Of a stretch of 64,000 nucleotides of DNA, positions 28,602 through 59,007 are shown in pieces (the stretch's first letter is position 1; every line of letters begins with the position of its first letter). The notes under the pieces were generated by a model. It saw only the letters and a list, made by a program, of their open reading frames with translations, was not told where the DNA came from and did not search any database. The DNA is taken from the NCBI RefSeq assembly GCF_023277115.1, contig NZ_JALQCS010000001.1:1792001-1856000 (forward strand), given 5' to 3'. Made by a program: the position numbers and the translations under genes. Source of the DNA: Acidithiobacillus acidisediminis (GTDB lineage: Bacteria; Pseudomonadota; Gammaproteobacteria; Acidithiobacillales; Acidithiobacillaceae).

Positions 28602-28605
28602 TCTC

Positions 28606-35779: not shown

Positions 35780-36213
35780 TTGGATGGCGTGCTTTTGAGT
35801 GAGGTTTACGCGAAGCCATCGGTGAGCAAACCGTGTGTGCTGGCGTACCCCAGCACCAAGATTTCGATCATCACCACCACCGAACGGCGCTCCCGATTAG
35901 CAGCTAGGCGTAACATCTGTTTGATCTCCGAGGATGATCGGACGGAGTGGGTCCTGACATTCAGACGTCATGGCGGACAGTTTCTGAGACCCACACCGAA
36001 TCATTATATTGCTTTTTGCTTTTTACCGCCACAATTATGGAGTTGATTCACCCGCTCCACACCCCCAGCTTGCTCTCCCCCATCAAAACCCGCGCGGATC
36101 CCCCCCCAGGTGCCGAAGTGCGAGAACGGTTGCTATATTCTGTGCAGGGCAAACCGAAAACCGCACGAACTACGGGACAATCAATCAGTTGTACTCCCTT
36201 ATAGGACAAACCC
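35780..36213. other. Intergenic region between the R-M operon and the recombinase genes
   Basis: This 434-bp stretch separates the divergent hsdM operon and the first serine recombinase. No protein-like frame was seen. It contains an extended -10 like motif TGCTATATT at 36131-36139 on the plus strand, upstream of the recombinase. Confidence 0.4.
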
Positions 36214-36408
36214 ATGAAACAGGAACTGTATGACCTGGCCGACCTCTTGGCCGACGTAGCGCTATCCATCATCAACCACACCAACCCAGAAGGGGGGAAC
36301 CCATGCTCATCGGAATATACGCCCGATATTCAACCGCCGACCAGTCGGAAACATCCATCGCCGACCAGATCCGCCGATGCCGAAACACCATCGCGCACAA
36401 GAAGATAA
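36214..36408 (+). CDS. Possible short upstream ORF of the serine recombinase
   Basis: A frame of 64 codons beginning MKQELYDLADLLADVALS, a regular acidic amphipathic helix, preceded by AGGACAAACCC. It overlaps the recombinase start at 36303 in another frame and its second half is the shadow of that gene. It could be a leader ORF that couples translation to the recombinase, or chance. No homology recognised. Confidence 0.3.
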   Translation: MKQELYDLADLLADVALSIINHTNPEGGNPCSSEYTPDIQPPTSRKHPSPTRSADAETPSRTRR

Positions 36409-37976
36409 CCGCTACCCGGGAAATCATATTCCAGGACGCGGCGATCAGCGGCTCAGCGAACGCACAACCCGCTCGTTCGGGCTATGCTGACCTGCTAAAC
36501 GCGATAGAAAACCAACAAGTGAATTGCCTTGTTGTCGACGAAATCTCTCGTCTCAGTCGCGATCCATCAGAGATCATCCGGATCACCGAACGGATTGAAA
36601 AACACAATATCCTGCTGTTGTCTTCCGATGGGATCGACTCCCTTGAGCCGGACTGGCAAATGCGTTTGGCCCTGGCAGGAATCATGGGGAAGTCCGAACT
36701 GGATAATATCCGGTACCAGACGAAACGCGGCCTACGGGGACAGCTGGAAAGAGGATATATGATCGCTCCACCGGCTTTTGGTTACACTCGTATTCGGGTT
36801 AATGCTGCCGGTTTGCCGGCAGTCAATGAAGAGGAAGCGACCGGCACGATCTGGAAAGTCAACGAAGCACAAGCAACTATAGTCCGTCAGATTTACGAGC
36901 AGAGAGCCAGTGGAGTAGCGCTCGGAGAAATTGCCCGGGAATTGAACGACAAAAAGATTCTGCTGCCACGTGCAGGTAAAAAAGGACAATCGGTGTGGCT
37001 ACCGACCACCGTACATCGACTCATCACAAATCCCATTTATCGAGGCGTTCTTGTACTCCACGGAAGCGAATCGTATCGCGCCACCCACAAATCGCGGGCA
37101 GAGGAACCGATCGAATACCACCGCCCGTCTCTGCGTCTGGTTTCGGACGAGGTCTGGGCCAAGTGCAATCCTACCTCCTCCAGACCACGGACAAAAAAAA
37201 GAAACTCCCATTTTTTGTCCCGCTTGGTCACCTGCGGGTTGTGTGGCCGGTATTTGAGCATGACATCCGCGTCACACAACTGTCGAAGCCTGTTCTGCTC
37301 CGCATGCTCGGTACGTAGGAAAGTATCTGGCGACAAACACACCCAGACAACCAGCGTGTCCCTCAACGCAGTAAAGGCATTGATACGACAGGTTCTCCTA
37401 TTCACGATAAGTAACCCCGAAGTATTCTCTGCATACCAGAACGCCCTCAACTGCAAGCTCACCAATACATCGCGTGACCGACTCAGTCAAGTGCGAAAGA
37501 AACTGCGGACTTTATCCAAGGACTATCAGAACACTCTGGATCAGTACATCGCTGGGAACGATACACTCGAATCCCAGGTCGCGTTACTGGGCCTACGACG
37601 GCAAGCGCTAAAAACCGAAAAGGAACTTTTGGAGAACCAGTTGCGGAGCCTCGACGAAGAGAGCATACAGCACCAACTTTCCATCACGCCAAGCGATCTG
37701 ATCGATACGCTTATGGAAGATTCAAAAGTCTACGAAGATCGCTTGTACCCCATTTTAAAGGCGATATTTCCGTCGATCCGACTGATGGGACGACGTTCGG
37801 ATAAGGCCGCAGTATTTAAGGTACAAATAGACTTAGGTCAGGCCGTTGCAGCAGCATCTGGAACCGCGACCGTGGTCGCACATCCGATCACTACCACTTA
37901 TTCAGTATTGGCATCAAAAAGACAACCAGGGGTTTGGACAGTCACACCCTCTATCCCCCCAAAGGCCACAACCTAG
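36303..37976 (+). CDS. Large serine recombinase
   Basis: A 557-residue serine integrase/recombinase. The catalytic domain starts IGIYARYSTADQSETSIADQ with nucleophile Ser10, followed by VVDEISRLSRDPSE and the LDNIRYQTKRGLRGQLERGY helix region. The recombinase domain lies about residues 160-270 (GYTRIRVN...GEIARELNDKK). A zinc ribbon CGLCGRY...CSAC sits near residues 320-345, then a coiled coil (about 390-450). It has a clear rho-independent terminator 20 bp downstream. It is probably used to move the neighbouring island. Confidence 0.92.
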   Translation: MLIGIYARYSTADQSETSIADQIRRCRNTIAHKKITATREIIFQDAAISGSANAQPARSGYADLLNAIENQQVNCLVVDEISRLSRDPSEIIRITERIEKHNILLLSSDGIDSLEPDWQMRLALAGIMGKSELDNIRYQTKRGLRGQLERGYMIAPPAFGYTRIRVNAAGLPAVNEEEATGTIWKVNEAQATIVRQIYEQRASGVALGEIARELNDKKILLPRAGKKGQSVWLPTTVHRLITNPIYRGVLVLHGSESYRATHKSRAEEPIEYHRPSLRLVSDEVWAKCNPTSSRPRTKKRNSHFLSRLVTCGLCGRYLSMTSASHNCRSLFCSACSVRRKVSGDKHTQTTSVSLNAVKALIRQVLLFTISNPEVFSAYQNALNCKLTNTSRDRLSQVRKKLRTLSKDYQNTLDQYIAGNDTLESQVALLGLRRQALKTEKELLENQLRSLDEESIQHQLSITPSDLIDTLMEDSKVYEDRLYPILKAIFPSIRLMGRRSDKAAVFKVQIDLGQAVAAASGTATVVAHPITTTYSVLASKRQPGVWTVTPSIPPKATT

Positions 37977-37995
37977 GATCTCTATCCGCCTTTCA

Positions 37996-38019
37996 GCCCC
38001 AATACATTGGGGCCTTTTT
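37996..38019 (+). terminator. Rho-independent terminator after the first serine recombinase
   Basis: GCCCCAAT-AC-ATTGGGGC (37996-38013) forms a perfect 8-bp stem with a 2-nt loop gap, followed by CTTTTTA. It lies 20 bp after the recombinase stop. Confidence 0.85.
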
Positions 38020-38058
38020 ATGCACAGAAAGGGCTACCAAAAGGTAGCCCGTAAATGT

Positions 38059-38655
38059 TTACTTGACATCTCTCCTTTGGTTGCACAGCATAACAACGAC
38101 CTCATCTAGTATCTGATCCCAATCTTGGGGATCGGGGATCATATGGCTACCCGTGAGCGCCTGATATAACCGGGCGATCGTCTCTTTGACACGTTCCTCC
38201 GCGAGATACGCTGAGACGGGAAGCATCTCCCCCCAGACAGTATCACGTGCAATCGTATCGAGCGCCAGATCGATCACCATGCCTCGGCTGACCGCCTCGC
38301 GTCGTTCGTCGATATTAGCTATTCCGGCCGCCGATAGCGCAGCTATGATCGAAATACCGAGCCAGTCTGCAATCTTTGCAAAAACACTGACAGGCAAGCG
38401 CCGAACCCGATAGCCTCCGCGCATCAGGACTTGGTAGTCCGCCTTGCGGATACGCAATAGCTTGCGTACGTTTTTTACCTTCTGATTTCGCTGCTGGGCC
38501 ACCATAGTCACCCATGTTCGCAGCTGTTTGCCCTGCCCTTGCGACAAGCTATCGAACAGCGCTTTCAAACTCAATGGGGACTTCCTATCCGTACCCGCAC
38601 AAGTCCAGCGCAGATTCCGAATCGTTTGCACTTCCACAACAGACCGATTTTCCAT
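38059..38655 (-). CDS. Unknown HTH-like protein between the two serine recombinases
   Basis: A 198-residue protein starting MENRSVVEVQTIR; AGGAG lies 6 nt before the ATG at 38655. The middle is basic and looks like a helix-turn-helix (KVRKLLRIRKADYQVLMRGGYRVRR, with a helix VFAKIADWLGISIIAALS after it, about residues 65-115), resembling Cro/XRE-type folds. The C-terminal half is acidic and helical. It faces the second recombinase with a 270-bp shared region. I do not recognise the family; a regulator of the recombinases or a directionality factor are both possible. Confidence 0.55.
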   Translation of the reverse strand: MENRSVVEVQTIRNLRWTCAGTDRKSPLSLKALFDSLSQGQGKQLRTWVTMVAQQRNQKVKNVRKLLRIRKADYQVLMRGGYRVRRLPVSVFAKIADWLGISIIAALSAAGIANIDERREAVSRGMVIDLALDTIARDTVWGEMLPVSAYLAEERVKETIARLYQALTGSHMIPDPQDWDQILDEVVVMLCNQRRDVK

Positions 38656-38927
38656 ATGTGCTCCTTTTCCGTTTGACCTTTCACGCCACGCGCTGATTTC
38701 GAGGCTTCGTTGCGTACCTAGTATAGTCACCCGATTCGCAGTCTACGCCCCTATCCAAAATCTCCGTGCGATACCTGTCGCTATATTATCCAGGCCCACA
38801 AAGAACCGGTGTTCCCTTCATCCGAAACCTGGAAAACATCACCTAGTTGCACAGGGTGTTCCTATACTGTTTGCAGCCTCTCATACCGCTGCACATCCGA
38901 CCCTAACATCAACTACAAGGAGGCTTC

Positions 38928-40652
38928 ATGCCAACAGCAGCCATCTACGCACGATTCAGTACCGATAATCAGCGCGAGACCTCGATCGAGGACCAAGTTC
39001 GACGTTGCAAGGCTGTCGCTGAACGGAACGGCTATACCGTTCCTAATCATCTCATTTTCTCCGATTCGGCGATTTCTGGGAGTGAGAAAGCCACAACAAA
39101 ACGGGAGGGTTATAAAGCGCTCATTGATGCCTGGGAATCCGGCAAATTTGACTGCATCATCCTGGACGAAATCAGCCGCATCAGTCGCAGCCTAAAAGAA
39201 ACGATCAAGGTAACCGATCGTATCATGCAGACCAATGTCCGTCTTATCACGGCCGATGGGCGCGATTCACAAACAGCAAACTGGCTTGAGTTGCTGCAGA
39301 TTGGAGCGATTTTTGCGGAAAAATCCCTCCAGTCCACGGCCTTTCGCGTTCGAAGAGGCATGGTCGGCCAATTGCAGCGCGGCTATGAAGTCGGCTATCC
39401 GCCATACGGTTACGATGCTGTATCCGTTGGCGTCTCGGGAAATCCTGTGACCCCAGGAGAAGAACGCGTCGGCATGCGATGGATGATCAATCCGGAGGAA
39501 GCGAAGATCATTGTTCAGATGTTCGAGATGCGTAAGGCAGGAAAAAGTTTCAATCAAATCTGCCAGCATCTCAACTCCGCCGGCGTGAACCCCCCTCGCG
39601 ATCCCAGAACGCCGCAAGGAGTGGCATTCTGGCGACCTGGGACGATTCGCAGACTTATCGCGAATGAGACCTTTTGTGGGGTACTTGTGACCAACGATTT
39701 AGAACTCTCTGACAACACTACGGGAAAGACCGAGAAAGGCAGAACCACTCGCTACGATAGACCCCATCTCCGCATCATTGATGACGAACTCTGGATCGCG
39801 TGCAACAGTAAGAAAGGCGCACGCGCGAGTTATGGAGGAGGTAAAAATGCGTTAGCCGGACTTATCGAGTGCGGTACCTGTGGCACGAAGTTATCGCTGA
39901 GCAGTGCCGGCAAAGAGCAGAAACTTGTTCAATCTTTCTACTGTGCGAGTTGCCGGCAAAGAAAAAGCGTGGGCGCAGCATCGGCAGTCCGGGTTCCGGT
40001 CAATACCGCAAAAGCTGGGGTAGAAACCATGCTCCGTTTTTGCCTGCAGAGAATCGTTGATAATCCCGCTATTCGCGAGGAGTTTACCGCGCGACTGCGT
40101 GCCAAGCTTACCGGCGATAGGCAATCGGAATTACTTGCATTACAGGAAGAATGCAAGCAGGCAGAAAAAAAGTACACGCGCGCGGTGGAATTGCTCAGCA
40201 AGATAGGAGAGGAAGATCATCTCAGCAAAACAGTTGTTACGCTCCATGCGGCCTGGAAAACCCTGGAAACACGATATCACCGGCTGAAGTCGGCGATTGG
40301 GCAAGTCGACAAGAAAACCCTTGCCAAGCAACTGCGATTCGATCCCGCAAAAGCGGTGGCTTCGGTGTTCGATGCCGGGCTGCCTCCCGAACGGTTACGG
40401 GCGATGTTGCTTGGAGTCTTTCCCAAGATCATCGCGATCGGGAAGACGAATCGGTACACAACTCTCTTTCGGATTAGCCTCTGTCCAGGCGCTTTGGCTG
40501 CCGCTGCAACGGGCACGGAAATCCAGGATTCAGGCGTGGTGAGGTTATCGATCCGGTTGACGGCACGCACCAGCGGTGAACGCGGCTGGTTGGTCGAGGA
40601 GATTGAGGAGCCGGTGCGTCAGCCGACAGAAGAAAGCACACACCAAGAGTAA
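38928..40652 (+). CDS. Large serine recombinase (second, distinct copy)
   Basis: A 574-residue serine recombinase related to but different from the upstream one. The catalytic domain is AAIYARFSTDNQRETSIEDQ with Ser11 as nucleophile, ILDEISRISRSLKE and FRVRRGMVGQLQRGY. The recombinase domain is about residues 165-280. The zinc ribbon is CGTCGTKLSL...CASC near residues 318-345, and a coiled coil is near 395-430. AAGGAGG lies 5 nt before the ATG. A terminator follows 20 bp after the stop. Same orientation as the first. Confidence 0.92.
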   Translation: MPTAAIYARFSTDNQRETSIEDQVRRCKAVAERNGYTVPNHLIFSDSAISGSEKATTKREGYKALIDAWESGKFDCIILDEISRISRSLKETIKVTDRIMQTNVRLITADGRDSQTANWLELLQIGAIFAEKSLQSTAFRVRRGMVGQLQRGYEVGYPPYGYDAVSVGVSGNPVTPGEERVGMRWMINPEEAKIIVQMFEMRKAGKSFNQICQHLNSAGVNPPRDPRTPQGVAFWRPGTIRRLIANETFCGVLVTNDLELSDNTTGKTEKGRTTRYDRPHLRIIDDELWIACNSKKGARASYGGGKNALAGLIECGTCGTKLSLSSAGKEQKLVQSFYCASCRQRKSVGAASAVRVPVNTAKAGVETMLRFCLQRIVDNPAIREEFTARLRAKLTGDRQSELLALQEECKQAEKKYTRAVELLSKIGEEDHLSKTVVTLHAAWKTLETRYHRLKSAIGQVDKKTLAKQLRFDPAKAVASVFDAGLPPERLRAMLLGVFPKIIAIGKTNRYTTLFRISLCPGALAAAATGTEIQDSGVVRLSIRLTARTSGERGWLVEEIEEPVRQPTEESTHQE

Positions 40653-46991: not shown

Positions 46992-49174
46992 TTTACTAAG
47001 AATCGCGATCGGTTGCTGGATCACGGGACGGTACGGGAATGCTTCCGATCCGTACTGGAACAGGCTCGCGGCCAGAATCTGCTCTCCGAAGAGCATTTCT
47101 CCGTCGATGGTACGCTGTTGGAGGCCTGGGCCTCGCAGAAATCCTTTCAGCCCAAGGATCCCGAAGATCGTAGCGGTGATGGCTCCGACTTCCGGGGCCA
47201 GGAGCGCAGCAATGAGACCCACGCATCGGTGACGGACCCCGATGCCCGGCTGTACAAGAAGGCTCCCGGAGAGGCGTCCCGTCTGGCCTACCTGGGTCAT
47301 GTGCTAATGGATAATCGGCATGGATTGATTGCCGGGGAACAGGTGACCACCGCCGATGGCACGGCAGAAGTGGATGCCGCTACCCAATTGGTGGATGATC
47401 TGGGCGGGAACCAGCGCATCACCCTCGGTGCCGACAAGGGCTATGACCGTCACGGCTTTGTTCAGGATCTCCGGGACCGGAATGTGACCCCGCATGTAGC
47501 GCGCAAGCGCAAAGGCTCGGCCATCGACGGGCGCACCACCCGCCACGCCGGTTACGCGATAAGCATCCACGTCCGGCGGCGGATAGAATCCATCTACGAT
47601 TGGATGAAGACGGTGGGAGGGATGCGGAAAACCCGATTCCGTGGCTTGGAACGGGTCGGTCTGCACTTTTCCTTGGTCACTGTCGCCTACAACCTGGTCC
47701 GCATGGTGCGGTTGGGGGTGGCCTGATGGGGGTACTGCGTCTGGAATCCGAAAATGGCCCAAAAAAGACTGCAACAGCGGACAAAACAGGACTGATAGGG
47801 CTGCCTATTCGGCAATTTTTGATCAAATCGGATAGCGCCACGGCGTTTCTACGGATTTTTTCCGCACCCTCTTAAAGCCCCTCTAAAATATGCAGGAAGT
47901 TTGTCTTGTATCTTTCCGCCAGGAGAAATAATCGCAGTCACCCCAGTATTTGTGGATCGAATATCGGGTTTTTCCTCTTCGCGTGCCTGCATGGCGGCCA
48001 TTTGCAAACTCTGCGGTAATGCCGTGCTATGTCCGAACCAGGAGTAATCACTGATGTTCGTCAGAAAAGAAGCTCCCTGTGTAACCCCCTTGCGCACGTC
48101 CCGAGAAAAGGACTCTTCGTAACATATCGTCATTCCTGCTTTTAAGCCCTTAACGTTCAGCGTGGAAGGCCCGTCGCCTGGAGTAAAGCTGCCCAATCCC
48201 GGCAAGAAATGGTGCACCAAAGGCGCAAGCAATTGCGGAAATGGAATGTATTCGCCAAAGGGAACCAGGTGTTGTTTTCGGTACCAATGCCATGGAGCCA
48301 ATCCATCGATATCCAACGCCGCATTATAGTAGTGGTGTTTTGCGTACTCGACAATTCCGAGAATGATGTTTGTGTGATGTTCTGCAGACCATCTTTGTAG
48401 ATTGCGGAGCAAGCCAGGAACCTGCGTCTGAAAAACTGGGAAGGCGGTTTCCGGCAAGACGACCAGATTCGTGCCTTTTGGCGTGGCAAGAATGAGCTTG
48501 ACGTAGGTATCAAGCACCGCGCTGAGTTTTGCTACATTCCATTTTTCTGTTACAGGAACATCGCCCTGGATGAGTCGTACCGTAAGCTGCTTATGCATCC
48601 GTGCAGTCCAGTGAATGTCTTGACTAAATGCCGCTCCGGTATAGAGCAGGACAATTCCACCGATTGCGGCGACGGCCTTCCTGCGGTTAGCCCGATGGCG
48701 GATAAGGAAAAGAAGCAAAGCAGCCACGCCGGCAGTTGCCAGGCCCACGCCGTATTGGCCCAGGAGCGGAGCCCATCCCCCCAGGAGACTCCAGGTCTGA
48801 CTGTATCCGGTGGCAAGCCAGGGAAACCCGGTGAAGAGATGGGCTTGAAGCCACTCCGCTCCTATCCACAGAAAGGGAAGCGCGAAGAGTCTGCTATGCG
48901 CCCACCACTTCGCGGCTACCCACAGGGAAAGGGCTGGATAAATAGCGCAGTAGAGTGCCAGCAGAGCAACGGCGGCCGCAGACAACAACCAACTCATGTG
49001 CGCATAATTATGAAGCGGTATAGCTAACCAATAGATCCCGGCTGCAAAGGCCCCGAAGCCAAACGCGAATCCTATCGTTGCGGCAGCGCTTGGTGTGACC
49101 GCATCACTGAGCCAAAATAGGGCCAGCAGGAGGACAATGGTCAGGAAGGAGAGATCAAAGGGTGCGAAGGCTAA

Positions 49175-50323
49175 GGAAGCTCTGACCTAGCCTAAAAAGG
49201 TGCGCCTTGTCCCCAGTATTGACCTAAGCACGTTGCTATCAGGTCACTTATCCGTCAAATTCCCCCATTTTCTGGAGAATTATTGGATATTGGGCACACC
49301 ACTCCCTACGCGGCCAGGAGATATCTCCTCAGCATGTACAGATTGGCCAAGGCAAAGAGCGTGGTCAGTTGAGCACCGTTCTTGGCCAGACCCCGATATC
49401 TGGTTCGCTGATAACCGAATTGGCACTTCAGCACCCGGAAGGCGTGTTCTCCCCGGGCACGGATCCGGGCAATGGCGCGGTTGTAGCGCTTGAGGGCCGC
49501 CAAGCCGGTTTTCTGCCCAGGATAGCGTCGCCGCGCTACCGCGTTCCGTATGCCTCGGGCCACCAGCGTGTCATGCACCTGGGGATAGTCATAGCCCCGG
49601 TCAGCGAGGACCACCGACTCCTCTCCGGTAAGGAGCCCCTCCAGCCGCTGATGATCCGGTACCTTGGCCGCCGTGAAGTCCACCGCCTGTACGATACCTT
49701 GGAGATCCGTTGCCACATGCGCCTTCATCCCGAAATACCACTGATTCCCTTTCTTGGTGGAACTCATCTCTGGATCCCGCTTGCGGTCTCGGTTCTTGGT
49801 GGAGCTCGGGGCGTGAATCAAGGTGGCATCCACGGTCTTGCCTTCCTGCAGCAAGAGCCCTTTCTCCTGCAACACGGACTGCACCTCGGCAAAGATGGCC
49901 TGGGCAAGCGCATGGCGCTCCAGTAAGCGGCGGAACTTCAGGATCGTGGTCTCATCGGGAACGAAGTCCCGACCCAAGTCGATACCGACGAATTGACGGA
50001 GCAGAGGAACCTCGTACAGGGCCTCTTCCATCCCCGGATCGGAGTAGCCGAACCATTGCTGGAGAAAGTGGATCCGCAGCATCCGCTCCAAAGGCATAGG
50101 TTTGCGGCCGCTGCCCCCCTTGGGGTAGTGCGGCTCGATCAAGGCCACAAGCCTGGCCCAGGGAACCACGGCATCCATCTCGGCCAGAAAGCGTTCTCGC
50201 TTGGTCTGCTTGCGGCGTCGCGACAGGCTGGGCTCCTCGGCAAAGGTTATCTGTCCGGACATGGATAGCATCTCCTCGCTACTCGGTCAGCCCATTGTAT
50301 CAGATGGCTAAATCAGAGACTCC
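49175..50323 (-). mobile_element. IS5-family insertion sequence, copy 2, inverted (1149 bp)
   Basis: Same length and ends as copy 1 but on the opposite strand: GGAAGCTCTGACCTAGCC at 49175 and, at 50323, the complement of GGAGTCTCTGATTTAGCC. Flanked by CTAA (49171-49174 and 50324-50327), which agrees with a YTAR target. It separates the first 23 codons of lnt from the rest. Confidence 0.92.
49306..50262 (-). CDS. IS5-family DDE transposase (copy 2)
   Basis: Identical protein to the transposase of copy 1, in the opposite direction, with the same DDE blocks and the same start at MSGQITFAEE. It is intact, so either copy can supply transposase. Confidence 0.95.
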   Translation of the reverse strand: MSGQITFAEEPSLSRRRKQTKRERFLAEMDAVVPWARLVALIEPHYPKGGSGRKPMPLERMLRIHFLQQWFGYSDPGMEEALYEVPLLRQFVGIDLGRDFVPDETTILKFRRLLERHALAQAIFAEVQSVLQEKGLLLQEGKTVDATLIHAPSSTKNRDRKRDPEMSSTKKGNQWYFGMKAHVATDLQGIVQAVDFTAAKVPDHQRLEGLLTGEESVVLADRGYDYPQVHDTLVARGIRNAVARRRYPGQKTGLAALKRYNRAIARIRARGEHAFRVLKCQFGYQRTRYRGLAKNGAQLTTLFALANLYMLRRYLLAA

Positions 50324-50389: not shown

Positions 50390-51019
50390 TCATGCGATCG
50401 TTGCCAGAATGTTATGCAGTCCGAGCAGCCCGAGCCCATGTTGGAGGTGCCATCGTTTCGCCTTGGTATAATAGAGCAGCGTTGGGGTCGCCTCCTCGCC
50501 GGTTTCGGCAAGCAGCTGTGTGTTGTCCGACACCGCTCGACGGATCGCCAAGGGTGCTTGGTAGTCAGGACGAATGCCCCCTTCCTCGGTAATAACGTTG
50601 AAATGCGATTCATCGAAAGCTAGCGCCTGCGCTGGGTTTTTGGCAGCTAAAATAGCTGCCGCTTTGGCAGCGCTGGTGGGCTTCAGAAAGCCAACGAGAG
50701 CCACCCGCAGATGGAGTTTCCCAGCGCGTACCAGGGGCATGGCCTTTTCGTAGAACCGGTGACACCAGATGCAGTTCGGATCCATGAAAGCGGTCAGCTC
50801 TGGACCACGGTTGCCCACGAGAAAGGTATCCGCATGGCGCAATTTTTGGACGATAGTCTGAATGGGCAGGGCTTTCGGCGGGAGATCGAAGGAGTGTTCG
50901 ATGTGGTCAAAAGCGCTTTGAGGCGTAGCTGCAATTGCTGATGACGACAGAAAGAACGTCAGACCAAGAGAAACAATTGATATCCACCCGGAAATGTTAA
51001 AAAACCAGGCCTTGTTCAT
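50390..51019 (-). CDS. Periplasmic thioredoxin-fold protein, DsbC/DsbG-like (third of three)
   Basis: A 209-residue secreted protein. The signal peptide runs to SSSAIAATP (cleavage near residue 30). The active site is CIWC in AFMDPNCIWCHRFYEKAMPL, and the cis-Pro motif is ATPTLLYY. The segment GKLHLRVALVGFLKPTS is shared with the two other Dsb-like proteins of the operon. The ATG at 51019 has GGAGG 4 nt upstream. It lies downstream of the DUF2063 gene (42 bp gap) and its stop overlaps lnt (ATGA). Likely isomerase/oxidase for the RiPP or for other Cys proteins (inference). Confidence 0.85.
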   Translation of the reverse strand: MNKAWFFNISGWISIVSLGLTFFLSSSAIAATPQSAFDHIEHSFDLPPKALPIQTIVQKLRHADTFLVGNRGPELTAFMDPNCIWCHRFYEKAMPLVRAGKLHLRVALVGFLKPTSAAKAAAILAAKNPAQALAFDESHFNVITEEGGIRPDYQAPLAIRRAVSDNTQLLAETGEEATPTLLYYTKAKRWHLQHGLGLLGLHNILATIA

Positions 51020-51060
51020 TTGTCCTCCAAGATTACGGATCGTGGCAGAGCGTTTCGGTA

Positions 51061-51801
51061 TCAACCGACTCGAATGAGTCCAGCACGTTGGCAAGACTCG
51101 AGAATTTGTTGGTACTGTCCACCGGGATCAGCATAGAGTCCCCACTGCAGAGCGTCTTCGAGTGATTTCCCGGTACAAAGCTGGTTTAGAAAAACATAGG
51201 ACCCGGCAGGCAAAATCCAATAGATTGGTCCCTGATCTGTGGGAATCATGCCGATACCCAACCAAGCATGTCTGTGTAAATCTCCTTGAGTCCAATCCGG
51301 GAGATCATGATAACGAGTCACCTCTTCGTAGGTTACCCAGTGGGAGCGAAACAGGCGTGGGAGGCGATCCAGGTAAATGGCTTGACCAGATGCACGTCCC
51401 AGGAACAGCGCGGGTTCTCGTTCTCGCGGAACCAATGGGTGGCAACATTCCAGATTGCATCGATGAAGAAACCATTCCAGACGCGCAATCTCCCCAAGAT
51501 GTTGCAGACTCTTCCCACGAGAAATCAGAAAAGGACCCAAGTGCTCCCCGTAGAGCATCAGGTCCGGATCACTGGGTAAATAGAGTCCTCGATAGCTGTC
51601 TGCTAACTGGTTGAATGGGCCGACGCCGGCCATGTCGGCAACCGCTGGGTAAATGTTGGCCAAGGAATCCGCCAATCGGTTCTGCATACTTTGTCGGTAG
51701 AAAGACAACGCCGGAGCAGAGGGTTCATCGTCTACCGACTGCAGAATTCGGTTAGCCCAATCTCGCTGCCAGCGAAGTAATGCTTCCCTATTACCATTCA
51801 T
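51061..51801 (-). CDS. DUF2063-family partner of the MNIO enzyme (BufC/HvfC-like)
   Basis: A 246-residue protein. The N terminus (LLRWQRDWANRILQS) and YRQSMQNRLADSLANIYPAV near residues 34-53 are the DUF2063 DNA-binding-like fold; LARLEWFLHRCNLECCHPL-type residues follow near 105-120. In RiPP clusters this family binds the precursor leader and delivers it to DUF692. The start ATG overlaps the DUF692 stop (ATGA at 51798-51801). The C-terminal domain ends with helices resembling the winged partner domain (SLEDALQWGLYAD). Confidence 0.85.
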   Translation of the reverse strand: MNGNREALLRWQRDWANRILQSVDDEPSAPALSFYRQSMQNRLADSLANIYPAVADMAGVGPFNQLADSYRGLYLPSDPDLMLYGEHLGPFLISRGKSLQHLGEIARLEWFLHRCNLECCHPLVPREREPALFLGRASGQAIYLDRLPRLFRSHWVTYEEVTRYHDLPDWTQGDLHRHAWLGIGMIPTDQGPIYWILPAGSYVFLNQLCTGKSLEDALQWGLYADPGGQYQQILESCQRAGLIRVG

Positions 51802-52610
51802 ACTGCGGATTCCAGAGATTGTGCTGTCCTTACCAACTCGGACAACGAGGGCAGGTCGGCATCCCATTCCAGAATGCGAATGGCATCGGGAAAGCGCGCG
51901 CATGCGAATGCAAAGAGAGTCCGGGCCTGTTTTCCGGGGACACGACTGTGGGTGTCGACGGAGAGAACCGTTCCATCCACCTGCACCTGCTCACCGCCGG
52001 CAACATGAATTTCGGTAACTGCTGGTATGGGCAAACCACCCAGCAAAGCCCATGGATCCCCTCCATGGTTGTCACAATTGATTCGCAGGTTCTCGACGTC
52101 CAGCAGTAGTTGGCAGCCGGACTGCGATACCAACTCCCGCAAAAAATCCGCCTCTGAGTAGTCGTCTCGTCCATTCGGCGGGAGATAATAAGCAATATTC
52201 TCCAGGAGCAAAGGACATTGCAGAAAATCCTGTACCATTCCTATGCGAGACACCAGGTGCCGCAACACAACGGATTGTCGAGGAAGGGGATACTGATCAC
52301 TGAAATACTGGCCATCCAGTGAAGACCAAGCAAGATGGTCCGAGACCCGAAGAGGATCTATCTGATGGATTAGAGTACGTAGTCTCTTTAGATAGCTCGT
52401 ATTCAATGGGTCGCTGGAGCCGATGGAAAGTCCTACTCCGTGCAGGGTGATCGGATAACGCGCGCGCACCGCCTCCAGCTCTGCCAGCCAGGTTCGATCG
52501 GCCCCCAGATAATCCTCGCTGTAGACCTCCAGGACACTAACGTCGGGCTGCGTGAGCAGAATCCCCTCGACGTGAGGAGCCCGAAGCCCGATTCCTGTGG
52601 AAGCGTGCAT
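51798..52610 (-). CDS. MNIO (DUF692) iron-dependent peptide-modifying oxidase, BufB-like
   Basis: A 270-residue TIM-barrel enzyme of the multinuclear non-heme iron-dependent oxidase family (MbnB, TglH, ChrH, BufB). Visible features are GIGLRAPHVEGIL at the N terminus, EVYSEDYLG, TLHGVGLSIGS with the iron-binding His, VSDHLAWSS, LLLENIAYYLP, LLLDVENLRINC and IHVAGGE...DTHSRVP, which carry the His/Asp/Glu metal ligands. It should modify Cys residues of the upstream peptide, for instance to a thiooxazole as in BufA. The gene begins 60 bp after the peptide stop with a hairpin between. Confidence 0.92.
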   Translation of the reverse strand: MHASTGIGLRAPHVEGILLTQPDVSVLEVYSEDYLGADRTWLAELEAVRARYPITLHGVGLSIGSSDPLNTSYLKRLRTLIHQIDPLRVSDHLAWSSLDGQYFSDQYPLPRQSVVLRHLVSRIGMVQDFLQCPLLLENIAYYLPPNGRDDYSEADFLRELVSQSGCQLLLDVENLRINCDNHGGDPWALLGGLPIPAVTEIHVAGGEQVQVDGTVLSVDTHSRVPGKQARTLFAFACARFPDAIRILEWDADLPSLSELVRTAQSLESAV

Positions 52611-52669: not shown

Positions 52670-52918
52670 TTACATGGTGGATTTCTTTTTTACGCCACTA
52701 CAACCATGACGCATCATTCCCCCTTTGTTCTCATAGGCTTTGCGTTTACCGCTGCAGCCATGGCGCATCATACCTCCCTGGGATTTTGCTGCGGACTGCG
52801 TTTTGCCCATGGGCGGGACCATGGTGTCGGCGTTAGCCAATGTGGTTATGGTGCCACCGGCCAAGCAACTGGCGAGAAACGTACTGGCGATTGTCTTGGC
52901 TACTTTGCTGTGTTCCAT
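52670..52918 (-). CDS. Secreted RiPP precursor peptide with two GGMMRHGCSG cores
   Basis: An 82-residue peptide. MEHSKVAKTIASTFLASCLA and the following GGTITTLANA form a signal peptide with AxA-type cleavage near residue 31. The mature part has two copies of GGMMRHGCSG (residues 48-57 and 66-75) 18 residues apart, joined by KRKAYENK and ended by VKKKSTM. Each repeat has Met, Met, His and one Cys, soft-metal ligands. It directly precedes the DUF692 and DUF2063 genes. AAGGAG lies 7 nt before the ATG. It lacks the four-Cys pattern of the DUF2282 bufferins, so it appears to be another precursor type. Confidence 0.8.
   Translation of the reverse strand: MEHSKVAKTIASTFLASCLAGGTITTLANADTMVPPMGKTQSAAKSQGGMMRHGCSGKRKAYENKGGMMRHGCSGVKKKSTM
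52694..52777 (-). repeat. Two tandem coding repeats of the RiPP core
   Basis: Two 30-bp units (52748-52777 and 52694-52723, reading minus strand) encode the same ten residues, with synonymous differences at several codons (GGA GGT versus GGG GGA; CGC CAT GGC versus CGT CAT GGT). The period is 54 bp. The synonymous changes show selection on the protein, not a recent slip duplication. Confidence 0.85.
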
Positions 52919-52965: not shown

Positions 52966-53598
52966 TTAATCGTGCCCGTGCCATAAATGTGGTAACAGTT
53001 TTTTCAAGCTGGCTTCAGAAATGGCCCCTGGGATGCGTCCGATAGCTCCATCTTTGGCACGAAACAAGATCGCGGGAGTACCTTCGAAGCCCGCCTCGCC
53101 CATAATATCCAGATTCTGCCGCAGGTTTTTCCGGGTTGCAGCGGTTGGGGTTACCTTCGGCAAGGAACGATAACTCCCGCTGCGTAACGCTGGACCAACA
53201 ATGGTTTCAAAGTGCTTGAGGGCCTGCAACGGGTGCGGTGACTGCAGCCAGGCCGCCGCTTCGGCCGGACTTTGGGGGGTGAGGAAGGCGACCGGTACAT
53301 ATCGCACCGTCAATTTTCCAGCCCGAATCAAGGGTGCCTCGTGTTCATACATCACATGGCAATAAGGACAATTGGGATCCTGAAAATCGTAAATTATCGG
53401 ACCTGCATAGCCGTCCTGAATATAGGTGACGTGGTGCGGTAAAAACTGATTCCAAAAAGAACTGGCTGTCATTTTGGGAGCAGTATCCGAAGTCTTCGCA
53501 AAGGCGAGGTTTGGGGTAAGGAGGAAGAAGCCGAAGGTGAGCACTCCTCCCAAGATCCATTGCGCCCGCTGATTGTTCATCCATCGATTCATTCGCAT
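52966..53598 (-). CDS. Periplasmic thioredoxin-fold protein, DsbC/DsbG-like (second)
   Basis: A 210-residue secreted protein with a signal peptide ending near NLAFAKTS. The active site CPYC is in IIYDFQDPNCPYCHVMYEHE; the cis-Pro region is FEGTPAILFRAKDGAIG. It resembles the next gene closely in the core (APLIRAGKLTVRYVPVAFLTP). GGGAG lies 6 nt before the ATG at 53598. It precedes the precursor peptide gene by 47 bp. No dimerisation domain is present, so it is a monomeric DsbG/C relative. Confidence 0.88.
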   Translation of the reverse strand: MRMNRWMNNQRAQWILGGVLTFGFFLLTPNLAFAKTSDTAPKMTASSFWNQFLPHHVTYIQDGYAGPIIYDFQDPNCPYCHVMYEHEAPLIRAGKLTVRYVPVAFLTPQSPAEAAAWLQSPHPLQALKHFETIVGPALRSGSYRSLPKVTPTAATRKNLRQNLDIMGEAGFEGTPAILFRAKDGAIGRIPGAISEASLKKLLPHLWHGHD

Positions 53599-53616: not shown

Positions 53617-54225
53617 CTATTTGAGATTAGGAAGTAGGGTCAGCAGTTCCCCGCGGGAAACCATGCCGGGCAGTAAGCCCGTGGTACCGCTCTTGCGCTG
53701 ATAGAGAATGGCCGGGACCCCCATGGAATGGGTGCTTTGCAGCACGGCCATGTTGACTTGCAGCGCGTGAATGGTCTGAGGAGTCGGTTTGGCTGTGGGA
53801 AGACCAATGGGCCCGCTCGCTGCCAAGGGAGCCGCAAAACTTTTACCCGCCAGCACTTCGAAATGCCGGAGCGCAGACAATCGATGCGAAGATTGCAGAA
53901 TCGCGGCCGCCTCCGGTGTACTGCTGGGCATCAAATAGGCCACCGGAACATAGCGTACCGTAAGCTTCCCGGAGCGAATCAGGGGCTGCTCCTCGTTGTA
54001 CATGCCATGGCAATAAGGGCAGTTCGGGTCAAAGAAATCGTAAATGATGGGCCCTCTGCGCCCTTCCTGAATGTAGGTGAGACGCTGTCCGATCGTTGTC
54101 CAATAGCTGGCTTGGGCCATGGGTGGCAGGGGGCTGGAAACGGTCGCTGCCAGTGCCACCGGAGAAGAAAAAGCTGCCGCCAGCATCGTGCCTACGACGG
54201 CTGTTATCACTGAGTGTTTGCGCAT
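53617..54225 (-). CDS. Periplasmic thioredoxin-fold protein, DsbC/DsbG-like (first)
   Basis: A 202-residue secreted protein. A signal peptide (MRKHSVITAVVGTMLAAAFSS...ALA) is followed by LTYIQEGRRGPIIYDFF, active site CPYC in DPNCPYCHGMYNEEQ, and cis-Pro GVPAILYQRKSGTTGLLPG. A paralogue of the next gene, sharing GKLTVRYVPVAYL. AAGGAG lies 7 nt before the ATG at 54225. The DsbD gene is 28 bp upstream and probably supplies its electrons. Confidence 0.88.
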   Translation of the reverse strand: MRKHSVITAVVGTMLAAAFSSPVALAATVSSPLPPMAQASYWTTIGQRLTYIQEGRRGPIIYDFFDPNCPYCHGMYNEEQPLIRSGKLTVRYVPVAYLMPSSTPEAAAILQSSHRLSALRHFEVLAGKSFAAPLAASGPIGLPTAKPTPQTIHALQVNMAVLQSTHSMGVPAILYQRKSGTTGLLPGMVSRGELLTLLPNLK

Positions 54226-54253: not shown

Positions 54254-56173
54254 TCAACGGTTATTCCCCGTTGTCCCCAACTTTTCCTGCAAATGGCGTA
54301 GCAACGTGTTAGGACCCTCATAGCCCTCATATTGCCCGACGAGATGACCGTCTGGGTTTACCAGCAAAACCGCTGGTGGGCCGAAGAGTTGGAAATGGTG
54401 CAGGAGTGCGGATGACTGGCTGTCATTCGCCGTTACATCCACACGAATCAGGGACAAAGGCCGCAACGCGCTCTCCACTCGGGGATTGTCATAGGTTTCC
54501 ACATCCATCCGCTGACACTCCACGCACCATTTTGCCCAGAAGTCCACCAGGACGGGATGGCCCTTGTCTGCGGCCAGCGCCGATCGCAATTGCGACAAGC
54601 TGCGAACCAAAGTGAAGTGCGGCGTACTGGTTTGTTGCTCCCCCGGGAGTGGCAAGTCATGCTGTACGAACGGTGCGAGCGGCTGGAGCACCTGAGAACC
54701 TCCCCCCAAAGCACCTATGAACAGGGCAACCCCGAACACCAAGGCCAGCAATCCGAGTCCTCGGCGGAACTGTTGCCATCCGGTAGGTGCGTAGTGAGAA
54801 CCAAATACACCCAGATAGACGCTGGAAACGATCGCCAGTGCTGCCCACAGGGCAAGAGCGACATTACCGGGAACAATGCGCGTGAGAAACCAGATCGCCA
54901 CCCCGAGCAAAACGACCCCAAAAATGGCCTTGACTCCATTCATCCAGGCACCGGCCTTGGGTAGGAAATGCCCGGCCGAAGTCCCGATGACCAGCAAGGG
55001 AACCCCCATCCCCAAGGCAAGAAGAAACAGTGCCAAGCCTCCCAGTAACACATTGCCAGTATGGGCAATAAACAGGAGGGCGCCGGCCAACGGTGCGGCA
55101 ACGCAGGGGCCGACGATCAGCGCGGAGAGGACCCCCATTAGCCAAGCGCCGGTAAAATGCCCACCCTTTCCATAGCGGGAGAGACGAGATTGGATGGCAG
55201 TCGGCATCTGCAGTTCGTAAAAGCCGAACATGGACAATGCCAGCAAGACGAATAGGGCGCTGAAGCTCCCGAGTACCCATGGGCTTTCAAAGAATGCCTG
55301 CAGATAGGATCCCGTAACCGCAGCCAATACCCCGGCAATGGCGTACGTTAGGGACATCCCCAGCACGTATGCCAAGGAAATCCAGAAGGCATGCCGTCTG
55401 GCCTGTCTTGCCGTCATCTGGTCCTCTACGTGCCCGACCACCAGGGAGGACAAAATCGGGATCATGGGGAAAATGCAGGGGGTAAAAGCCAACCCCAGGC
55501 CAGCGACAAAGAAGAGCAGTAATGTCCAAAAAGCATGGCTACCGAGTAGCCCTGCAGCGAACTGGCGATACCTACCGGAAGCCGCATGCGACTGCTGGGG
55601 CGCTACGGGTTTGACCAGTGGTGGCTTCTCCGGAGGTGACACCGTGGCCACGGCCGCTGTACTGGGTGTTGCTATGCTAGGCGCAAGCGTATAGGTCTTG
55701 GTTTCTACCGGATAACAGACGCCAGCATTGGCACAACCCTGAAAGCTGCTGGTCACCTGAATCTGTTTCGGGGGCTGACCCTGGAAATGGAGCGGCACGC
55801 GAACGGTGGTGGTGTCTCCCTCGTAGACGGCCAAGGTGCCCACCCCAGGAATGTGCATGGGTTTTCCTGGTGGCAGGGTGTAGGGTCCCAGCCGTACGGT
55901 GCCAGGTGTCACGTGCACCTGAATCCGGTTGCGATATAGGTGATAGTGTTTGGCTGCCACCCACTGCAGCACCAGTTCGTTCTGTGGTGCCATGTGCGCG
56001 CGGAATTGAAAGGCTTTGGCTGGAGCCAGAAACGAAGAGGAACTCCCCATCAGGGGGGAGAAGACTTCGCCCGCCAGAGCAACGGGGGGCAGACACAGCA
56101 AAGTGATCAGGAGGATCAAAACTCCCCTAGTAAATTGTTTAACTGCGCACTTTGCCACCCTCTCCACTCCCAA
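54254..56173 (-). CDS. dsbD: Thiol:disulfide interchange protein DsbD
   Basis: A 639-residue transmembrane reductant conduit. An N-terminal signal peptide leads to the alpha domain (QGCANAGVCYP holds its Cys pair), then eight membrane helices with Cys in GLAFTPCIFPMIPI and in GPCVAAPLAGALL, and a C-terminal thioredoxin-like domain with WCVEC in DFWAKWCVECQRMDVETYD. It carries electrons from cytoplasmic thioredoxin to periplasmic DsbC/CcmG-type proteins, fitting the three Dsb-like genes downstream. The start codon is unclear: TTG 56173, GTG 56167 or GTG 56158. It is the first gene of the RiPP operon. Confidence 0.92.
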   Translation of the reverse strand: MGVERVAKCAVKQFTRGVLILLITLLCLPPVALAGEVFSPLMGSSSSFLAPAKAFQFRAHMAPQNELVLQWVAAKHYHLYRNRIQVHVTPGTVRLGPYTLPPGKPMHIPGVGTLAVYEGDTTTVRVPLHFQGQPPKQIQVTSSFQGCANAGVCYPVETKTYTLAPSIATPSTAAVATVSPPEKPPLVKPVAPQQSHAASGRYRQFAAGLLGSHAFWTLLLFFVAGLGLAFTPCIFPMIPILSSLVVGHVEDQMTARQARRHAFWISLAYVLGMSLTYAIAGVLAAVTGSYLQAFFESPWVLGSFSALFVLLALSMFGFYELQMPTAIQSRLSRYGKGGHFTGAWLMGVLSALIVGPCVAAPLAGALLFIAHTGNVLLGGLALFLLALGMGVPLLVIGTSAGHFLPKAGAWMNGVKAIFGVVLLGVAIWFLTRIVPGNVALALWAALAIVSSVYLGVFGSHYAPTGWQQFRRGLGLLALVFGVALFIGALGGGSQVLQPLAPFVQHDLPLPGEQQTSTPHFTLVRSLSQLRSALAADKGHPVLVDFWAKWCVECQRMDVETYDNPRVESALRPLSLIRVDVTANDSQSSALLHHFQLFGPPAVLLVNPDGHLVGQYEGYEGPNTLLRHLQEKLGTTGNNR

Positions 56174-56386: not shown

Positions 56387-56950
56387 TCAGGAATCCCGAA
56401 TAAATCGCACCTGCACCGGAGTGGGATAGCGCAGCATATCGGTGACGGGGGATGTCTGTTGCACGTGATCCAGGAGATCGGCGATTTCCTGGTCCGATGC
56501 AGGGCTTTTGATCCGGCAGGCAATATGGATCTCCTGACACCCAGGTCGCACCGATTCCGAGATTCCCAAAAACCCCTGCAGATCGATATCCCCCGTGACG
56601 TCCAGGGTCATTGTCTCAATGGTGATTCCACGCGCGGCGGCGTTGTAGGAAATCCCCACCGAAAGGCAAGCCGTCAGTCCCGCAAGCAACAATTCCACAG
56701 CGTTGGGCCCCCGATTGCTTCCCAGCAGCACCGGCGGCTCATCTCCTTCGAGCACAAAGGGTTGTGTGCGCGACGAATCTTCCTGTTTGACCCCGCGGAA
56801 TCCTTGAATCTGCGTCCGCACGTGGGCCCCGGTTTGCCATTCGGTGTGGGCCCGGAAGACAAACTTCGCAAGTTCGGGGTCTCCTTTCACGGCATCAATG
56901 GTTGCCATCAGTTGCGCAACGTCCACACCGTTCACTGGGGTTGAGTCCAT
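56387..56950 (-). CDS. OsmC-family protein
   Basis: A 187-residue OsmC/Ohr-like peroxiredoxin-type protein. The motif LLAGLTACLSVGISYNAAARGI carries the C-terminal Cys and PNAVELLLAG is the family core; a second Cys is in CQEIHIACRIKS. Such proteins reduce hydroperoxides or interact with sulfane sulfur. GGAGG lies 8 nt before the ATG. It is on the same strand as the persulfide dioxygenase operon, 76 bp after DsrE, so it may belong to it. Confidence 0.85.
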   Translation of the reverse strand: MDSTPVNGVDVAQLMATIDAVKGDPELAKFVFRAHTEWQTGAHVRTQIQGFRGVKQEDSSRTQPFVLEGDEPPVLLGSNRGPNAVELLLAGLTACLSVGISYNAAARGITIETMTLDVTGDIDLQGFLGISESVRPGCQEIHIACRIKSPASDQEIADLLDHVQQTSPVTDMLRYPTPVQVRFIRDS

Positions 56951-57026: not shown

Positions 57027-57365
57027 TCAAAAGCAGACCACCTCATCCACGGCACTGATCCAAGCCGAGAGGCCTTTCATGGAGCTCTTAGCGACACCCT
57101 TTGGGAGGGCGTCGATCCCCTGGGCTTGCAAGGAGCTTCCGCAACACTGGACCTCTAGTCCCAACTCCAGCAGTTCGTTCAGCAAGGCATGCGTGCTATC
57201 CCCTGCAGTCTCGGTACCTTTCAGCAAGAGAACTCCCTCTCCCGCAAGAAACAGGCGCACGTCCTTTCCGTCAGCCAGCATGGCCCCAGCGAGTCGGACA
57301 GCGGTGTCGGCCCTGGGGTTTGCCCGTTCCGGAGCGGCATGCAAAATTATGAGAGCAGTAGTCAT
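57027..57365 (-). CDS. DsrE/DsrF-family sulfur-relay protein
   Basis: A 112-residue protein starting MTTALIILHAAPERANPRAD, with a flavodoxin-like fold: AVRLAGAMLADGKDVRLFLAGEGV, then LELGLEVQCCGSSLQAQGI where the Cys pair replaces the single active Cys typical of DsrE. It would carry persulfide sulfur. The ATG overlaps the MFS stop (ATGA at 57362-57365). A longer frame upstream is a shadow of the MFS gene. Confidence 0.85.
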   Translation of the reverse strand: MTTALIILHAAPERANPRADTAVRLAGAMLADGKDVRLFLAGEGVLLLKGTETAGDSTHALLNELLELGLEVQCCGSSLQAQGIDALPKGVAKSSMKGLSAWISAVDEVVCF

Positions 57366-58651
57366 CCAGATACTCCTGTAGAAGCGGCGTGGGTTCGCGG
57401 GTGGGTTTCTTGTACGGAAAGCGCGATCCACAAGCCAGAAAACGCGACGATGCCGGCGGTGAACCAAATGGCGGGGAGAATCTTGTCGCTCCATTGTGCG
57501 ACCACGCCGAGCACCAGGCCACCAATGGCATAACCCGTATCTCGCCAGTATCGATAGGTGCCCAGGATGCGTCCACGCTCCAGTGGGGGCGCCACATCGG
57601 ACATGGCGGCGATCAGGTTGGGATAGAGAAGGGCCATGCCCAGGCCCATTACCGCCGCCGTGGCAATCCACGCGGTGAAGCGGCCGACCAGCGCAGTGCC
57701 TGCAAGCCCCGCAGCCAGCAGGGCGAAGCCTGCCAGGATGGGCGGTCTGCGACCGATGCGATCGGCGAGATGTCCGGTCCCAAATTGACCGAGCCCCCAG
57801 ACCATCGCATAGACACCGGTGATCCAGCCGATTTGCACGACGCTCAAGCCGTGAAACCGGAAAAAGACCGGGAAGAGGACCCAAACCAGGGTATCGGCAA
57901 TCTTGTTGGCGACCCCCCCCTGGCAGAGGGCCCGATAGGTGGCGTCCCGAAAAGAAACGTGCAGGAAAGTCGCCCAGGTGCTGACCTGAGAAGCCGTCTT
58001 TGTGGTTTCTGCCGATGGCTGACGCTGTGCATGCTCTGCGCGAACCCAATGGATAGTATCCTGGATCCCCAATAGTAGGAGTAGTGCAAGCGCAATGACC
58101 ACGAGTCCGAACGCCAACAGTGTCCAACGGGGACCGTAGACGACGGCAAGATAGCCCGTTGCGAGGCCCGCCAAACCCACCGCGATGTAGCCCACTGCCT
58201 CATTGATGCCAACAGCCAGGCCGCGCTGGTGGTTATCGGCCAGATCGATTTGGCTCGTGACGGTCATGGTCCAGGTGAAGGCCTGATTTACCCCCAAAAA
58301 AACATTGGCGCCGATGATCCACCACCAGTTGGGAGCAAAAAAGATCATTAGCGGAATAGGAATCCCCGCCAACCAGCCCAGGAATAACACCCGCCTGCGA
58401 CCGATTCGATCGGATAGCCCGCCGGCGACAAAGTTGAGAGCCCCTTTTACTAGACCAAAGGAAATCACAAAGGAGGCGAGAAAAAGGAAGGCGTGGCTAT
58501 CTACGCCAAAACGGTGGCTCATGGCAGGAAGGACATTTCTCTCCATGCCGATGATCAAGCCTACGAAAAAGACCTGAACCGTTTGCAGGAGGAACTGACC
58601 TCGATTGACGCCAATTCCTCGAGTATAGGTCGTGGTCTCCTCGGAGCTCAT
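57362..58651 (-). CDS. MFS transporter of the persulfide operon
   Basis: A 429-residue MFS transporter with 12 predicted helices. It has loop motifs GLSDRIGRRRVLFLGWLAGI and the second-half equivalent GHLADRIGRRPPILAG, and the helix-4/5 segment NQRGLAVGINEAVGYIAVG-like. The substrate cannot be read; context suggests a sulfur compound. ATGA overlaps join it to the ArsR gene upstream and DsrE downstream. Confidence 0.85.
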   Translation of the reverse strand: MSSEETTTYTRGIGVNRGQFLLQTVQVFFVGLIIGMERNVLPAMSHRFGVDSHAFLFLASFVISFGLVKGALNFVAGGLSDRIGRRRVLFLGWLAGIPIPLMIFFAPNWWWIIGANVFLGVNQAFTWTMTVTSQIDLADNHQRGLAVGINEAVGYIAVGLAGLATGYLAVVYGPRWTLLAFGLVVIALALLLLLGIQDTIHWVRAEHAQRQPSAETTKTASQVSTWATFLHVSFRDATYRALCQGGVANKIADTLVWVLFPVFFRFHGLSVVQIGWITGVYAMVWGLGQFGTGHLADRIGRRPPILAGFALLAAGLAGTALVGRFTAWIATAAVMGLGMALLYPNLIAAMSDVAPPLERGRILGTYRYWRDTGYAIGGLVLGVVAQWSDKILPAIWFTAGIVAFSGLWIALSVQETHPRTHAASTGVSG

Positions 58652-59007
58652 CCCTGATGGCCCTTGCGTAGAGGCACCACCGTCGCTAATGCCTCTTGAA
58701 GCTGGGTAGTGGTCTGCATTTGGTCCAGGATGAGATCGCGGACGATCTCGCACGTTTCCAGAACCTTGGGGCTGGTCAGACGATAGTGACAGAAGGTCCC
58801 GCACTTTTCGCAATGCACCAAGCCCCGAGCTTTCAGCACGCTCAGGTGCTGGGAAAGGTTGGCTTTGGAGAGGCTGATGAGTTCTGCCAATTCACCGGCA
58901 TTTTTCTGTCCCTCGCCCAGATAATGGATGATCTCCAGGCGTTTGGGGTGCGCAAGGGCAGAAAATACCTCAGAAAAAAGCGCATACCGAACGGTATCAT
59001 TCTTCAT
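58648..59007 (-). CDS. ArsR-family regulator, Cys-rich (sulfide/persulfide sensor candidate)
   Basis: A 119-residue winged-helix protein starting MKNDTVRYALFSEVFSALAH. DNA-recognition helix is NAGELAELISLSKANLSQHLSVLKA; after it come CEKCGTFCHYRL and CEIVRD, four Cys. In BigR/SqrR relatives a Cys pair forms a di-, tri- or tetrasulfide to sense persulfide. Here the Cys positions are not the standard pair and would have to be tested. The gene sits between the dioxygenase and MFS genes and overlaps both by 4 bp (ATGA). Confidence 0.8.
   Translation of the reverse strand: MKNDTVRYALFSEVFSALAHPKRLEIIHYLGEGQKNAGELAELISLSKANLSQHLSVLKARGLVHCEKCGTFCHYRLTSPKVLETCEIVRDLILDQMQTTTQLQEALATVVPLRKGHQG

Follow-up and report, generated by a model that had tools for sequence, protein, structure and literature searches.

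The locus raises the question of what is made from a small open reading frame lying beside the gene of an MNIO (DUF692) iron enzyme on the minus strand of a 64,000-nucleotide stretch of Acidithiobacillus acidisediminis DNA (the whole stretch analysed, hereafter the window). We consider it probable, from the sequence and by analogy with characterised systems, that the frame encodes a RiPP precursor which the MNIO modifies, and that its exported product is captophorin- or bufferin-like and most likely buffers Cu(I). The precursor has the following parts:

52670..52918, minus strand: precursor peptide of 82 aa with two MMRHGCS cores (open reading frame with homologues beside the same MNIO)
52829..52918, minus strand: predicted Sec signal peptide, cut after ANA at residue 30 (hydropathy and motif test)
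52748..52777, minus strand: core 1, GGMMRHGCSG (10 of 10 residues the same in the G023 copy L054)
52694..52723, minus strand: core 2, GGMMRHGCSG (its counterpart in G023 is DSMMGHGCSS)

The frame opens with an ATG at 52918, with AAGGAG seven bases 5' of it, and its stop ends at 52670; it encodes MEHSKVAKTIASTFLASCLAGGTITTLANADTMVPPMGKTQSAAKSQGGMMRHGCSGKRKAYENKGGMMRHGCSGVKKKSTM. Reading the signal peptide and its cleavage site off the sequence by hydropathy and motifs, we predict a mature part of 52 aa (after A-N-A, residue 30) with 7 Met, 8 Lys, 2 His and 2 Cys, and a third Cys of the precursor, C18, lies within the signal peptide in a conserved FLASC that forms a loose lipobox. The two GGMMRHGCSG units described in the original prediction are indeed encoded here, on the minus strand, and each has the single Cys claimed for it, C18 adding one more to the precursor as a whole. 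The longer unit describes both cores of the window, but only MMxHGCS is conserved across relatives. Between the cores 7 of 10 codons differ, by seven nucleotides that are all synonymous (zero non-synonymous), and when seven random substitutions were simulated in core 1, 0 of 200,000 variants kept the protein; the cores thus appear to be selected at the amino-acid level rather than as DNA, as had been proposed. A Met pair and a His are soft or borderline metal ligands. Searches of the peptide against Pfam, NCBIfam and PHROG gave no family match, and against the PDB nothing significant. It has no DUF2282 domain, two mature Cys instead of the four-Cys pattern of Buf1 precursors, and MMxHGCS cores instead of the EGKCG repeats of Buf_EGKCG/oxazolin precursors, so the earlier description of a precursor that adjoins an MNIO and is unlike the DUF2282 bufferins holds.

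Two genes follow the precursor on the same strand:

51798..52610, minus strand: MNIO (DUF692) maturase, BufB-like (PF05114 E 6e-75; NF050167 268.7 bits)
51061..51801, minus strand: DUF2063/PME1 partner protein (PF09836 E 3e-9)

The first belongs to the MNIO family by its PF05114 domain (E 6.1e-75) and its metal-site residues, retaining all ten residues invariant among 34 MNIOs (H57, H92, E137, D171, N174, H202, D219, H221, E248, D250), including those that align with the positions N175/D242/H244 described for HvfB (PMC13419390) and with Asp249, the base of FonB (PMC13097082). Its AlphaFold model (pLDDT 89.9) matches 3BWW (TM 0.78-0.83), TglH and MbnB. It scores better with the BufB model (268.7 bits) than with the HvfB model (177 bits), and falls below the cut-off of the NF050167 BufB equivalog (310 bits) though it is nested in the Buf1 clade. 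At the specificity sites Arg16 and Phe250 of FonB (PMC13097082) it has Ala and Ala, reading LRA/WDA vs LRR/RDF in the Lys-Cys group, and it resembles the Buf1 enzymes in having no second Arg. The partner, with a DUF2063 domain (37.4 bits vs a cut-off of 27.2) and a two-domain fold with an RRE, is of PME type 1; the only good PDB matches of its model (pLDDT 78.2) are TglI (8HCI/8HI7) and NGO1945 (3DEE), at modest TM values of 0.46-0.56. Precursor, MNIO and DUF2063 gene stand in bufABC order, the DUF2063 start overlapping the MNIO stop by four bases, and a single cluster thus holds the MNIO, PME1 and Cys-containing precursor that make up the gene content of a captophorin system.

In the tree of 34 MNIO sequences the peptide-linked enzymes group together (100/100), separated by a stem of 2.55 changes per column; their clade falls within the Buf1-linked enzymes (95/95), apart from the EGKCG/EGNCS-linked ones. 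The tree tool warned of a possible false attachment of one further long branch (L037) to this clade, and we therefore regard nesting within the Buf1 group as likely rather than certain. With the invariant residues kept on a long branch among maturases of DUF2282 precursors, it is likely, on sequence grounds, that the enzyme evolved from a Buf1 maturase and then switched substrate. The clade also carries private or nearly private changes at conserved sites (N33D, L106Q and N173E in the window's enzyme at 51798-52610), the last giving DVEN for DVNN beside the metal-site Asn.

Evaluating the distribution of the peptide, we found it in 4 of 31 genomes of the order, all Acidithiobacillaceae and all with the same MNIO clade beside it: the window's genome, Acidithiobacillus sp. 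YTS05 (G007), a member of another genus (G013) and G023, which has two copies of the cluster. The motif is therefore not unique to the window, and the claim of a new multi-core MNIO precursor class stands as to a distinct two-core precursor, in a narrow family seen only in Acidithiobacillaceae. Identity to the window copy is 98-99% in G007 and G013 and 63% for both G023 copies, whose cores read GGMMRHGCSG and DSMMGHGCSS, the first with His changed to Asn in the second copy (L055). This copy is the one exception to MMxHGCS being kept in both cores of every orthologue, and only 2 of 8 residues are kept in the stretch between the cores. Related DUF692 genes lacking such a peptide had been named as a check, and every orthologue of the MNIO (62-100% identity) proved to have one; more distant MNIOs in the carrier genomes have other precursors. 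In a fifth genome (G015) the Dsb operon is present but the MNIO is missing; its peptide gene is frameshifted, with one MMNHGCSS left, and by its sequence is a decayed remnant after loss of the enzyme. The clusters of the window, G007 and G013 are 99.3-99.6% identical (over ~11 kb for G013, and 7 kb + 3 kb for G007), whereas their housekeeping lnt loci are only 72-78% identical, and so the cluster has recently spread horizontally.

The second G023 copy of the peptide (L055 6095-6380) has three amino-acid and no synonymous differences, the core His to Asn change among them; an extra transposase-like open reading frame lies between its DUF2063 and DsbG3 genes and its Lnt gene is split, so that this copy is perhaps decaying or adapting. 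Beyond the family, we searched 369 genomes of the class with a degenerate DNA pattern (MMxHGC followed by a Ser-like codon). Its six matches there all lie outside small exported peptides and away from any MNIO, and these look like chance, as by the motif test do weak tblastn matches of the peptide in other genomes (E 0.004-1). No copy of the peptide was found in plasmids and no MNIO in viral contigs; plasmid MNIOs were all under 60% identity to the window's enzyme (best 44%).

Around the module lies an operon rich in thiol-handling genes, whose order on the minus strand is MBL-fold, ArsR/SmtB, MFS, DsrE, OsmC, DsbD, DsbG2, DsbG1, peptide, MNIO, DUF2063, DsbG3, IS and Lnt:

58648..59007, minus strand: ArsR/SmtB-type regulator (NF033788 78.2 bits, above cut-off)
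57362..58648, minus strand: MFS transporter (PF07690)
57027..57359, minus strand: DsrE-like protein (PF02635)
56387..56950, minus strand: OsmC-like protein (PF02566)
54254..56173, minus strand: DsbD, membrane thiol reductant carrier (NF001419 512.7 bits, above cut-off)
53617..54225, minus strand: DsbG2, DsbG-like protein (NF008657 92.8 bits)
52966..53598, minus strand: DsbG1, DsbG-like protein (NF008657 112.9 bits), also beside the Buf1 modules of relatives
50390..51022, minus strand: DsbG3, DsbG-like periplasmic thioredoxin-fold protein (NF008657 108.6 bits)
47849..49174, minus strand: second, cluster-linked Lnt (apolipoprotein N-acyltransferase), its 5' end cut by the IS (TIGR00546 295.6 bits)

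At three loci of two relatives (L116 and L125 of G023, L118 of G017) parts of this same operon (ArsR-MFS-DsrE and/or DsbD-DsbG2-DsbG1-DsbG3) carry a standard Buf1 module of BufA1-like gene, DoxX, BufA1, MNIO and DUF2063, and a DsbG1 homologue lies within ~5 kb in 7 of 7 Buf1 loci examined with wide flanks. The MMxHGCS module therefore occupies the place of a bufferin module, which is our main argument for its function. The window's genome has two further MNIO loci. Near 555,700 of contig C1 (L058 4661-4951) is a BufA1 that no NCBIfam model matches, with a mature start AGMMPHGYVKC and one Cys short of the usual four, ITRG replacing the SCAG Cys; this three-Cys form is seen in most of the Acidithiobacillaceae Buf1 precursors examined. 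Near 1,758,950 (L059 4430-4768) is an oxazolin-like precursor, likewise without an NCBIfam match, whose repeats read GEGNCSRRM, not EGKCG; such EGNCS-type precursors were seen in eight Acidithiobacillaceae genomes, and the 10.5 kb of L059 contain no DsbG1 homologue. Elsewhere in the window, 26238-40652 is an apparent defence/mobile island with a TrlF-like ATPase, type I restriction genes (including two adjacent HsdM-like open reading frames) and two large serine recombinases.

The same neighbours could be read otherwise, as an operon for reactive-sulfur or thiol stress in which the peptide would handle sulfane sulfur, or thiophilic metals from sulfur oxidation, and not copper as such. The ArsR/SmtB regulator, the MBL-fold protein (a weak match to the sulfur transferase/dioxygenase Blh), DsrE, OsmC, DsbD and three DsbG-like proteins all suit such a role, and no copper gene was identified among the annotated operon genes. 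We nevertheless think it unlikely, because standard Buf1 modules sit in the same operon, the Buf1 family is tied to copper (PMC12452194), and Met-Met-x-His-x-Cys is a metal-site pattern. That the peptide works as an unmodified Met/His/Cys metal binder while the MNIO serves another substrate seems to us very improbable. Met-rich peptides do bind Cu(I) without modification (PMC9117721), but peptide and MNIO always co-occur, the peptide has decayed where the MNIO is gone, and no other small Cys-containing exported frame was found directly 5' of this MNIO.

The Lnt gene at the end of the cluster suggests, more tentatively, a lipidated (DAG-) RiPP, in which C18 of FLASC would be a lipobox Cys, triacylated and served by the cluster Lnt, with the cores anchored to the membrane. 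A second Lnt, additional to the housekeeping one, accompanies the peptide in 4 of 4 genomes (truncated in G007) and is found in 0 of the 27 genomes of the order without it, which have one Lnt each; the window, G023 and the G015 remnant share an identical FLASC; and lipidated bufferins and oxazolins exist (PMC12636315). Yet the window and G023 fall short of the strict PROSITE-type lipobox rule by one residue (K8), though both have the loose LASC, and the conserved A-x-A and continuous hydrophobic stretch suit signal peptidase I. The link of Lnt to peptide moreover rests on two independent lineages, and the gene is broken in three of the copies: truncated in G007, split in one G023 copy and, in the window, interrupted in its start by an IS at about 49175-50323 (4-bp CTAA repeat by comparison with the empty site, L056). 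It is uninterrupted in the other G023 copy and in G013, which lacks the IS. Lipidation is, in our view, possible though unlikely. The window's genome has another copy of this IS next to its Buf1 cluster (L058 8234-9635), where the linked DsbG-like gene is only a fragment.

For the favoured reading, an exported, MNIO-modified peptide, we propose a mechanism by analogy. In the cytoplasm the MNIO, with its DUF2063/RRE partner, would oxidise each MMxHGCS unit at its core Cys; the product would probably be a 5-thiooxazole, with loss of 4 H per Cys, as in the characterised MNIO-PME1 systems, which convert Cys to 5-thiooxazole and whose products generally bind Cu (PMC13097082). The modified peptide would leave by the Sec pathway. 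Once in the periplasm, each core may coordinate a soft metal through its thiooxazole sulfur, its His and its two Met and so serve as a buffer, most likely for Cu(I). Bufferins promote the growth of cells under copper stress (PMC12452194). The Met thioethers would still be able to act as ligands in the acidic periplasm of an acidophile. A Ctr1 peptide at pH 3.5 shifts Cu(I) to Met-only coordination because its His is protonated (PMC9117721), which would suit an acidophile. HvfA Cys residues form disulfides (PMC13419390), and DsbD with the DsbG-like proteins may keep the sulfur ligands of the window's peptide reduced by reducing their disulfides. Joining all of this, one may picture a bufferin-type maturase switched from DUF2282 to a two-core MMxHGCS peptide that is lipidated by a dedicated Lnt and reduced by DsbD/DsbG, giving an acid-proof Cu(I) buffer that is anchored to the membrane and built from thiooxazole and Met ligands, though we offer this as a speculation that is improbable as a whole.

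The module would offer a traceable case of an MNIO maturase changing substrate class, and since both precursor classes occur in the same operon of related bacteria, the specificity residues are directly testable. The module further connects MNIO peptides with a set of proteins for periplasmic disulfide reduction and with a second Lnt, neither link being found in the MNIO papers searched: the main survey does not mention Dsb or thioredoxin (PMC12452194), and a literature search for MNIO or bufferin joined with DsbD gave no relevant paper. Should the peptide prove to bind Cu(I) at low pH, it would reveal how acidophiles of copper bioleaching buffer the metal under conditions that protonate His and Cys thiols. 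The EGKCG oxazolins are an earlier example of precursors with a single Cys in each repeat, and the survey reported hundreds of unclassified small signal-peptide frames with 1-18 Cys before MNIO genes (PMC12452194), so the novelty of the MMxHGCS family is moderate. The peptide may form a class distinct from the groups named there (Buf1, Buf2, Buf_EGKCG, CxxxxC, adjamnio, TIGR04222), and Table S2 of that survey may list it (PMC12452194).

Among known systems, the DAG-RiPPs (lipidated MNIO products; DybA, NedA) share with the window's peptide export, MNIO modification (here predicted) and a conserved Cys in the signal region; unlike them, it fails the strict lipobox rule, and we found no cluster-linked Lnt described in the literature consulted. 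Like the precursors of Buf_EGKCG, oxazolins and fontiphorin (HvfA, FonA), it combines a short, repeated one-Cys core with a signal peptide and a DUF2063 partner, but its core is MMxHGCS, not EGKCG nor the EGNCS of Acidithiobacillaceae, and its MNIO is without the Lys-Cys specificity residues and sits in another clade. From the Buf1 bufferins (DUF2282; BufA1-BufB1-BufC1) it differs in having two short one-Cys cores in place of DUF2282 and the four-Cys pattern, in an operon where no DoxX was found and with an MNIO on a long separate branch, yet it shares with them the signal-peptide precursor, the order precursor-MNIO-DUF2063, the closest MNIO relatives and, in related bacteria, the same host operon.
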